A stretch of 42,500 nucleotides of DNA from Thermoflexales bacterium. Lineage in GTDB: Bacteria; Chloroflexota; Anaerolineae; J036; Brachytrichaceae. A model generated the notes under the pieces. It worked only from the letters and a program-made list of their open reading frames with translations. It was not told the DNA's origin and did not search any database. Positions 37,061 through 40,163 of the stretch are shown here, piece after piece (the stretch's first letter is position 1; each line of letters begins with the position of its first letter). A program made the position numbers and the translations under genes. The DNA is taken from contig JANWUW010000086.1 in NCBI GenBank assembly GCA_025057935.1, forward strand, positions 1 to 42,500. The letters run 5' to 3'.

Positions 37061-38020
37061 ATGCGACTGCGACTCCGAATTCCTGCGCTTGCGCTGAGCG
37101 TGGCGTTGGCGGTCGGCGCTTTGCCATGTCCCGCGCAGGCGCAAGCCGCGCCGCACTACGAAGCGCTGACCATCCCTGCTTTGCGCGCGCGAACTTACGG
37201 CGACGGCGCGCTGCGCGTCGAGCGCACGCTGCAAGTGACAGCAGCGTTCACGCGCACGTTGATCAGCTACGATAGCGACGGGCTGCGCGTGTACGGCTTC
37301 ATGAACACGCCGCGCGGCAAAGGGCCGTTTCCAGTGGTGATCGTGCTCCATGGCTACGTCAACCCGCGCACGTACCGCACGCCTTACGCGTACACGCAGC
37401 CATACGCCGATGCGCTGGCACGCGCCGGCTTCCTCGTCGTCCATCCTGATTACCGTGGGCACGGGCGCAGCGAGGGGACTGCCGAGGGCGAGGCAAACCT
37501 CTTCCGCGTCGGCTATGCAGTGGACGTGCTCAACCTGATTGCGCATGTGCGCAAGCTGCCGCAAGCGGACGCCGACGCGATCGGCTTGTTTGGGCACTCG
37601 ATGGGCGGCGGGATCGCCCAGCGCGTGATCAGCGTGGATCGCGGCGTGAAGGCTGTCGTGCTTTACGGCTCGATGAGCGCCGACGAGCGCCTGAACGTCG
37701 CGCGCATCCGCGACGTCTTTCGGCGCGTGCCGCGCATGCCTGAGGATGGTGTGCCCGAGGCGCTCTGGGCGCGCATTTCACCCGTCACTTACATCGCCGA
37801 TTGGGAAGCTGCCGTCGAGATTCACCATGGCGCGCGCGACGCCCAGGTGCCCATCGAGTGGTCTCGCGATTTGCACCGCAGGCTCACTGAGCTCGGCAAG
37901 CCCAGCGCGCTGTTCGAGTACCCCGAAGGAGGACACGTGCTGCGCGGGCGCGATGGCGAGCGCATGATGCAGCGCGTGGTCGCGTTCTTTCGCCGTGCGT
38001 TGACTACTGCTGCGCCCTAG
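37061..38020 (+). CDS. Secreted alpha/beta hydrolase (S9/dienelactone hydrolase-like)
   Basis: 319 residues from ATG 37061. A Sec signal peptide is clear: RLRLR, hydrophobic core IPALALSVALAVGALP, and probable cleavage after AQAQA (about residue 29). The catalytic triad of the alpha/beta hydrolase fold is visible: Ser180 in GHSMGG, Asp260 in GARDAQVP and His292 in GGHVLRG. The oxyanion region IVLHGYVNPRTY and HPDYRGHGRSEG precede. It resembles prolyl oligopeptidase C-terminal domains and acylaminoacyl-peptidase-like esterases, so it may cleave peptides or esters outside the membrane. Its stop shares the CTAG palindrome with the stop of the convergent gene. Confidence 0.88.
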   Translation: MRLRLRIPALALSVALAVGALPCPAQAQAAPHYEALTIPALRARTYGDGALRVERTLQVTAAFTRTLISYDSDGLRVYGFMNTPRGKGPFPVVIVLHGYVNPRTYRTPYAYTQPYADALARAGFLVVHPDYRGHGRSEGTAEGEANLFRVGYAVDVLNLIAHVRKLPQADADAIGLFGHSMGGGIAQRVISVDRGVKAVVLYGSMSADERLNVARIRDVFRRVPRMPEDGVPEALWARISPVTYIADWEAAVEIHHGARDAQVPIEWSRDLHRRLTELGKPSALFEYPEGGHVLRGRDGERMMQRVVAFFRRALTTAAP

Positions 38021-38727
38021 CGCGTGATCTTCTTGACCACTTCAACCCCGTTGCACGCCATGTTGTACAAGAAGATGGCATGCAACAGATCGCCGTCATG
38101 CGCTGGGATGCCGTGTTTCTGCGCCACTTTGACAGGCGTGTCGTAGGTCTGCACGCAGTTTTCCGGCACGATCACGCGCACCTCGGGGATTTGCAAGGCG
38201 TTGGCGCGCAGCCGCAGATGCATGGCGAGCTGGTAAGTGCACAGGTCAGTGCAGTCGCCGACCACGATGAAGGTCTTGACCTCAGGATGCGCCTCCAGCC
38301 ATGGATCGAGCTGCGTGCCGATCGATGAGGAGATCGAGTTCTTCTCGATGATCACGAACTCCGAGGCGAATGGCAGGCGCGTCAGCTCAGGCACTGTTTG
38401 CGCTTCCTCGTGACCGCGCACGCAGTGCGGCGGATACTGGGCGAACTCAACCGCGTTTGGGTCGTGCGCGTCTTGTGTGAGCACGAAGTGGCGCACGCCA
38501 GCCGCGTAAGCGTCTTTGAACAGCTTCACAATTGGGCGCACGATGCTCTGCACGCGCGGGCTAGCGAGCGGGCCGATCGTGCAAAAGCCTTTGATCACGT
38601 CCACGCACATGATCGCCACGCGGCTGGGATCATCGCCAACGATCTTCGAGAGCTTTGCCGTCGGGCGGTTGGCGAGCCACGCCTCGACGTAGTTGATGAA
38701 TGGACGGGCACGCGTTGCTAGAGTCAT
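38017..38727 (-). CDS. Nicotinamidase/isochorismatase-like cysteine hydrolase
   Basis: 236 residues from ATG 38727, with AAGGAGGAA eight bases upstream. The isochorismatase-superfamily triad is Asp43 (MCVDVIKGFC), Lys129 (IIEKNSISS) and Cys163 (GDCTDLCTYQLAMH). Metal-site residues typical of nicotinamidases are present: Asp86 and His88 in TQDAHDP and His101 in YPPHCVRG, the last being a strong nicotinamidase signature. It probably converts nicotinamide to nicotinate for NAD recycling, which fits nadE in the same window, but other amidases of this fold remain possible. Promoter at 38760-38789. It shares a 4-base stop overlap with the convergent hydrolase. Confidence 0.85.
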   Translation of the reverse strand: MTLATRARPFINYVEAWLANRPTAKLSKIVGDDPSRVAIMCVDVIKGFCTIGPLASPRVQSIVRPIVKLFKDAYAAGVRHFVLTQDAHDPNAVEFAQYPPHCVRGHEEAQTVPELTRLPFASEFVIIEKNSISSSIGTQLDPWLEAHPEVKTFIVVGDCTDLCTYQLAMHLRLRANALQIPEVRVIVPENCVQTYDTPVKVAQKHGIPAHDGDLLHAIFLYNMACNGVEVVKKITR

Positions 38728-39014: not shown

Positions 39015-39023
39015 TGGTATAAT
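39015..39023 (+). promoter_or_regulatory. Extended -10 promoter of the str operon
   Basis: TGGTATAAT (TG at 39015-39016, TATAAT 39018-39023) is a perfect extended -10. The -35 position at 17 bases (TCGCCG) is not conserved; a TTGACG at 38982-38987 is too far away. Transcription from about 39030 gives a leader of about 165 bases before rpsL. Confidence 0.6.
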
Positions 39024-39038
39024 CTGCGCGCTTAATTG

Positions 39039-39066
39039 CCTGAAGGTAGCCGTAGCTGCCTTCGGG
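39039..39066 (+). promoter_or_regulatory. First leader hairpin (candidate antiterminator) of str operon
   Basis: GAAGGTAGC (39042-39050) pairs with GCTGCCTTC (39055-39063), one G-U included, around a CGTA tetraloop, and extends outward to 39039 and 39066. Within it GTAGCC (39046-39051) is identical to the 3' arm of the downstream terminator (39110-39115). It can therefore pair instead with the terminator's 5' arm GGCTAC (39090-39095). Confidence 0.45.
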
Positions 39067-39086
39067 AGGGCGCCAATTGAGCACCA

Positions 39087-39118
39087 AAAGGCTACTGCTG
39101 CGTGAAGCAGTAGCCTTT
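39087..39118 (+). terminator. Intrinsic terminator in the rpsL leader (attenuator)
   Basis: AAAGGCTACTGCT (39087-39099) and AGCAGTAGCCTTT (39106-39118) form a perfect 13-bp stem with a 6-base loop, followed by CTTG; the T run is within and just after the stem. No plus-strand gene lies between 38020 and this point, so it cannot serve an upstream gene and must end the leader transcript from 39018. Confidence 0.65.
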
Positions 39119-39194
39119 CTTGCCGCCTAGGGTTGGAGCGGCGAGAACAACGAAGGCGCAAGCCCAAACAAGTTAACTTTTAGAGAACGCAATC

Positions 39195-39665
39195 ATGCCG
39201 ACCATCAACCAGTTGGTTCGCAAGGGACGCAAACCGAAAGAGAGGAAGAGCAAAGCGCCGCAGCTTCAGTTCACAACGAACTCGCTGAAGGGCGGCAAGA
39301 AGGTGCCTTTGCCAAAGGGCGCGCCGATGCTGCGCGGGGTGTGCACTGTGGTGCGCACGCAGACACCGAAGAAGCCAAACTCGGCGCTGCGCAAGGTGGC
39401 GCGCGTGCGCCTGAGCAACGGCGCTGAGGTCACCGCTTACATCCCGGGCGAAGGTCACAACTTGCAGGAGCACTCGGTGGTGCTGGTGCGTGGCGGGCGC
39501 GTCAAGGACTTGCCCGGCGTGCGCTATCACATCATCCGCGGCGCGCTTGACGCCAAGGGCGTGGAAAAGCGCATGCAAGGGCGCTCCAAGTATGGTGCTA
39601 AACGCCCGAAGGCGGGCGCAGCCCAGAAGGGCGCTGCGCCTGCTGCAAAGGGCGGCAAGAAGTGA
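39195..39665 (+). CDS. rpsL: 30S ribosomal protein S12
   Basis: 156 residues, beginning [15 protein letters not shown]. The invariant core [20 protein letters not shown] and [20 protein letters not shown] is intact, including the Lys of KKPNS that is altered in streptomycin resistance. It also has [13 protein letters not shown] and [12 protein letters not shown]. It is longer than the usual 124-135 residues for two reasons. About 17 extra residues ([18 protein letters not shown]) sit between the KSKAP and KGAP segments that are nearly adjacent in, for example, Thermus. The C-terminus also has an Ala/Gly/Lys-rich tail of about 16 residues. S12 forms the decoding centre of the small subunit. 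Only a weak ribosome site (AGAGAA) precedes the ATG; the leader carries an attenuator-like structure. Confidence 0.96.
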
Positions 39666-39692: not shown

Positions 39693-40163
39693 ATGCCAAG
39701 ACGAAATTCGCCACCGAAGCGTGAGGTGCCACCAGATATTCGCTACGGCAGCGTGCAGGTGCAGCGCTTGATCAACCGCTTAATGCGCAACGGCAAGAAG
39801 AGCGTGGCGCAGCGCATCGTCTACACCAGCTTCAAGATCGCCGAGGAAAAGTCTGGCAAGCCAGCGCTGCAAATTCTTGAAGAGGCGCTGAAGAACCTTT
39901 ACCCCAGCGTCGAGGTCAAGCCGCGGCGCGTGGGCGGCGCCACCCTGCAGGTGCCGGTGGAGGTCAATCCTTTCCGCCAGGAGAGCCTTGCCATGCGCTG
40001 GTTGATCCAAGCAGCGCGCCAGCGACCCGGCAAATCCATGGCGGAGAAACTGGCAGCGGAGTTGCTCGACGCAATGAACAACACCGGCGCTGCAGTGAAG
40101 AAGCGCGAGGAAACGCACAAGGCCGCTGAGGCAAACCGTGCCTTTGCGCACTTCCGCTGGTGA
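39693..40163 (+). CDS. rpsG: 30S ribosomal protein S7
   Basis: 156 residues, exactly the normal bacterial length, starting MPRRNSPPKREVPPDIRYGS. Conserved features include LINRLMRNGKKSVAQRIVY, VEVKPRRVGGATLQVPVEV and RWLIQAARQRPGKSMAEKLA; the C-terminus ends NRAFAHFRW. S7 nucleates the head of the 30S subunit by binding 16S rRNA, and in E. coli it also represses the str mRNA. The gene follows rpsL by 27 bases with GGTGAG before the ATG, in the standard order rpsL-rpsG-fusA-tuf. Confidence 0.97.
   Translation: MPRRNSPPKREVPPDIRYGSVQVQRLINRLMRNGKKSVAQRIVYTSFKIAEEKSGKPALQILEEALKNLYPSVEVKPRRVGGATLQVPVEVNPFRQESLAMRWLIQAARQRPGKSMAEKLAAELLDAMNNTGAAVKKREETHKAAEANRAFAHFRW

Follow-up and report, generated by a model that had tools for sequence, protein, structure and literature searches.

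The stretch of DNA analysed here, referred to as the window, comprises positions 1-42,500 of contig JANWUW010000086.1 from a Thermoflexales bacterium (Chloroflexota; Brachytrichaceae, hereafter the family). Towards its right-hand end it carries the str operon in the order rpsL-rpsG-fusA, preceded by a structured leader. The S12 protein encoded by rpsL is 74-79% identical to its best matches in Chloroflexi metagenome-assembled genomes, as judged by tblastn. The features of the locus are as follows.

39015-39023, forward strand: extended -10 element, TGGTATAAT, read from the window sequence
39030-39082, forward strand: 5' leader domain, an outer helix around hairpin 1, present in the minimum free energy (MFE) and centroid folds
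39039-39066, forward strand: hairpin 1, CCTGAAGGTAGC/GCTGCCTTCGGG, with 12 pairs and a CGTA loop, from sequence and fold
39087-39118, forward strand: terminator-like hairpin, AAAGGCTACTGCT-gcgtga-AGCAGTAGCCTTT, with 13 bp and a 6-nt loop, from sequence and family covariation
39118-39144, forward strand: third hairpin, CTTGCCGC/GCGGCGAG, from the fold, holding a conserved CGCCT(A/G) block
39195-39665, forward strand: rpsL (ribosomal protein S12), from the open reading frame and tblastn against Chloroflexota S12
39693-40163, forward strand: rpsG (ribosomal protein S7), starting 27 nt past the rpsL stop codon
40215-42311, forward strand: fusA (elongation factor G), from the open reading frame, with the gene order kept in relatives

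The nearest open reading frame upstream of the leader (38017-38727) lies on the opposite strand and is divergent, so that the leader needs a promoter of its own and cannot be the tail of an upstream transcript. The perfect extended -10 described in the first-pass annotation is present at 39015-39023; the window promoter has no good -35 element and relies on this extended -10, from which transcription would start at about 39030. For comparison, 28 genomes of the family were searched, and rpsL was found in 26 of them, spanning all eight genera. A -10 box occurs in each of the 26 rpsL leaders, 130-240 nt upstream of the start codon, and a perfect TTGACA stands at a 16-nt spacing from it in 19 of the 25 leaders with enough upstream sequence. 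The operon thus has its own promoter upstream of both the terminator-like hairpin and rpsL, and this conserved promoter places the start of rpsL transcription before the hairpin that ends at 39118 rather than after it.

The leader is predicted to be highly structured, the segment from 39029 to 39197 having an MFE of -73 kcal/mol against -52.5 +/- 3.8 for shuffled sequences (z -5.45). The outer helix GCTTAATTG/CAATTGAGC pairs 39030-39038 with 39074-39082 and encloses hairpin 1; this hairpin and the 13-bp hairpin that follows it both lie ahead of rpsL where the first-pass annotation had placed them. The terminator-like hairpin, whose sequence occurs once in the 2.27-Mb genome, is followed directly on its 3' side by CTTGCC. 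The third hairpin begins on the final bases of the terminator stem, so that in read-through RNA the bases of the would-be U-tract lie in a stable stem; relatives keep TCGC...GYGA at this place, with a variable length.

The terminator-like hairpin is found in the same leader position in all 26 rpsL leaders of the family, where it takes the form RAGAGGCTACTG/CAGTAGCCTCTY. After the promoter, the leaders share an order of elements: the transcript opens with a GCTNRA block, which is followed by a GC-rich hairpin domain that varies among leaders, in most cases by an AAYTGAATNA-like block, and then by the long hairpin and CGCCT(A/G) just past it (24 of 26); like the GCTNRA block, the AATTGAAT block of the window leader recurs in relatives. 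Among 25 aligned leaders, 94.5% of the cells of the hairpin stem are paired, and changes on both sides are seen at 9 of its 15 pairs. Double-change cells number 35, compared with 9.9 +/- 2.8 in shuffles, and shifting the partner by one to three columns brings the covariation score below half. The proposed attenuator-like hairpin, lying past the rpsL promoter and ahead of the start codon, is borne out in this respect, as it both covaries and is kept throughout the family. Hairpin 1 is also maintained in the closest congener (L082, whose S12 is 99% identical), where two compensatory changes, A-U to G-C and then G-C to A-U, preserve its stem. In the rpsL leader of another relative (L095, genome G012), the terminator region is partially duplicated in tandem, and the hairpin loop and 5' arm of the second copy look flipped (CTTGA for TCAAG), as if inverted through the hairpin.

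A covariance model gave a single strong site, located at rpsL, in each of 26 of the 28 family genomes, which are all those where rpsL was found; as 25 of these 26 sequences had been used to build the model, this result is partly circular. The weaker second sites that were examined are ordinary gene-end terminators. Among the loci inspected, the family model matched no rpsL leaders outside the family, and its inspected matches at the level of the class were gene-end terminators, the S12 gene being present in none of those loci. With its promoter and its covarying hairpin, a leader of the premature-terminator type before rpsL is well supported. In other families of the class (L117, L122, L131, L134, L142, L109), a different terminator-like stem, GAGGCCATC/GATGGCCTC, is found before rpsL; it is common to several unrelated families, and its tail is sometimes C-rich or T-poor.

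The tail of the hairpin bears on whether it terminates transcription. The U-tract of the window is weak, TTTCTTGC following the G-C core with about 5 U in 8, and the family leaders have 5-6 T in the 8 nucleotides after the GGC core; in two genera the tail reads TTCTGTCG. Under a strict U-tract rule, counted from the last G-C pair, 8 of the 26 leaders pass, against 1% of shuffles; seven do so at the terminator-like hairpin itself, and the eighth through a different hairpin. With so U-poor a tail, termination would be leaky. Hairpins of like build and with similar tails occur at gene ends in the class and in the family. Checked against the open reading frames, one of them (L180, GAGAGGC...GCCTCTCTTGCC, also given as GAGAGGC...GCCTCTCTTGCCG) lies between convergent genes, and two others (L185, AAGAGGC...GCCTCTTCTTATG, and L204) follow gene ends. 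The T run is often longer at gene-end terminators than at the rpsL-leader hairpin. Strong intergenic hairpins proved scarce when 400 kb of one relative were surveyed, and some of those present have such longer runs. On the basis of this comparison, the leader hairpin is read as a leaky terminator, which is a reading rather than proof of termination.

Alternatively, the hairpin might be the structure of an RNA-protein site, a stabiliser of the mRNA end or a processing site, with control being exerted through translation or mRNA stability. The poor U-tract of most relatives speaks for this possibility, as does the fact that the stem sequence GGCTAC, the AATTGAAT block and the downstream CGCCT(A/G) block are conserved more than pairing requires, which protein recognition would predict. 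It has to contend, however, with the match in build and tails to the gene-end hairpins of the class and with the position of the hairpin, which in the leaders measured ends some 40-112 nt upstream of the start codon and leaves it uncovered; we consider it rather unlikely. In the same genome, a strong hairpin (GCGCCTCAACC/GGTTGAGGCGC, then TTGCGTTTTTCTTG) sits between the promoter-like TGGTAGAAT and rplJ (L257, G000:C22) and is likely to be an L10-type attenuator; the Rfam search did not call an L10 leader at this place. The presence of a terminator-like hairpin before rplJ as well makes r-protein leader attenuation plausible in this genome.

How read-through might be controlled was considered in terms of RNA structure. 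According to the first-pass annotation, GTAGCC in hairpin 1 (39046-39051) repeats the 3' arm of the terminator and can pair with GGCTAC in its 5' arm (39090-39095), giving two mutually exclusive folds in which this pairing would act as an antiterminator that excludes both hairpin 1 and the terminator. The complementarity does exist in the window, where the alternative duplex would have about 7 bp (-11.7 kcal/mol, z -2.4). It is lost, however, in L082, which has GGTGACC in place of GTAGCC (pairing z +0.3) and, as described above, nevertheless keeps hairpin 1. In addition, a duplex of this size would have to outcompete the local 12-pair and 13-bp hairpins. Over the 26 leaders, pairing between upstream RNA and the 5' arm of the terminator is no better than in shuffled sequences (mean z +0.6), which removes the support for two exclusive folds. 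The other combinations gave mean z values of -0.3 (upstream RNA, 3' arm), +0.2 (downstream RNA, 3' arm) and -0.4 (downstream RNA, 5' arm); a paired antiterminator formed by RNA on either side of the terminator with one of its arms is thus not conserved in these leaders. A closing helix pairing AGGC, the first bases of the transcript, with GCCT downstream of the terminator was similarly rejected, as a hand check found it in about 15 of the 26 leaders, while in the others it is disrupted although its 3' side has not changed. Of the two folds for which covariation had been proposed as a check, the terminator-like hairpin covaries, and the alternative fold is not conserved. As judged from these comparisons, there is no conserved exchange between the first hairpin and the terminator-like hairpin, though both are conserved, and we regard the switch as refuted as a conserved mechanism and as extremely improbable.

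Candidate ligands were approached in several ways. Sequence mimicry of rRNA was considered since AATTGA resembled the GGAATTGACGG region of 16S rRNA, but the 16S of this organism reads GGAATTGGCGG, and the idea was discarded; none of the three conserved blocks scored against the 16S of the same genome exceeded shuffles (p 0.2-0.7). Control by a leader peptide was also rejected, as the window leader contains no ATG between +1 and the terminator-like hairpin. The search of RNA families suggested in the first-pass annotation yielded no Rfam match to the leader at the gathering score, the only hits being unrelated chance matches up to an E value of 5. The covariance models for rpsL leaders in Rfam that are derived from the work of Naville and Gautheret (RF01773 and RF01774) did not match the window leader either. 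In the window, rpsL and rpsG are separated by 27 nt (15-123 nt across the family), which leaves little room there for an S7 site like that of E. coli, and an operator of this type, which would consist of a structured target in a lengthy intercistronic gap, was not found in the window.

The explanation that we favor, with a probability of roughly 0.6, is that of a lineage-specific attenuation leader of the str operon, in which a leaky terminator is combined with read-through that is probably set by a protein, without a base-paired antiterminator. The promoter, the hairpins with their conservation and covariation, the specificity to rpsL and the absence of a conserved paired antiterminator are seen in the data, whereas termination itself, its regulation and the regulator are inferred. 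Transcription would begin at about 39030, and the nascent RNA would fold its 5' domain and then the long hairpin, which would act as a leaky intrinsic terminator. Part of the RNA polymerases would stop near 39120, and the remainder would continue into rpsL-rpsG-fusA. The fraction that reads through would probably depend on a protein recognising the conserved blocks that flank the hairpin, rather than on a base-paired antiterminator. This role might fall to one of the operon's r-proteins (S12 or S7, for instance) or else to a general elongation factor. In a more specific version, which we hold to be unlikely, S12 (or S7) would bind the conserved single-stranded blocks beside the intrinsic terminator and directly set read-through, making this leader a one-family class of r-protein leaders that uses neither an RNA antiterminator nor mimicry of rRNA sequence. 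Conversely, the terminator might be constitutive, with leader and full-length RNA made in a fixed proportion and no signal being sensed. That neither an alternative fold nor rRNA mimicry was found is in keeping with this idea, but the flanking blocks are conserved over a long range in eight genera, for which a fixed terminator by itself hardly accounts, and we therefore consider it very unlikely.

A strongly covarying leader from an uncultivated lineage provides a defined RNA with which S12 or S7 binding and factor-dependent read-through can be tested, and it could be developed into an Rfam family. The general picture, in which r-protein operons are often attenuated, is left unchanged. Control of the str operon outside of E. 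coli is almost unstudied, as has been stated for S7 (PMC10931766), and of 20 newer r-leader candidates, none concerns S12 or Chloroflexi, as judged by a term search of the paper that presents them (PMC7247131). In E. coli, S7 controls the operon translationally, at an intercistronic site at the rpsL-rpsG junction (PMC10931766). The gene order rpsL-rpsG-fusA is the same in the window, but the element is found instead in the leader and the junction is short, so that control from this leader would differ from that of E. coli, as had been anticipated. In enteropathogenic E. coli, northern blots have revealed short, growth-phase dependent rpsL transcripts in stationary phase (PMC10687069); they also have a premature 3' end, the cause of which may be termination or processing. 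The L10 leader of Bacillus rplJ likewise places an r-protein operon under an intrinsic terminator located in the leader, but it differs in possessing a kink-turn ligand site as well as an antiterminator; in the window rpsL leader, neither is seen. The rpsL motif of Candidatus Pelagibacter ubique, which is restricted to that organism and marine metagenomes (PMC2704228), is similarly a structured RNA before rpsL without an assigned ligand; it is a three-stem junction and is not described as a terminator, whereas the window leader consists of serial hairpins, the last of which is terminator-like. The closest parallels are the premature terminators before rpsL, which in 2010 ranked with the commonest predicted attenuators and were termed multiform for want of a common structure (PMC2965389). 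They were reported by Naville and Gautheret in Listeria, Xanthomonas, Pseudomonas, and Rickettsia, and rpsL attenuators had been predicted in 24 species by Merino and Yanofsky, as cited there (PMC2965389). A potential antiterminator was reported in each of the cases of Naville and Gautheret, in contrast with the family of the window, where none is conserved; the Rfam search with the window leader gave no similarity. Like them, the window leader has a premature terminator-like hairpin before rpsL that is lineage-specific and whose sequence and structure are not shared globally, and it is thus a further lineage-specific case of an already predicted type of control, that of rpsL by premature termination.
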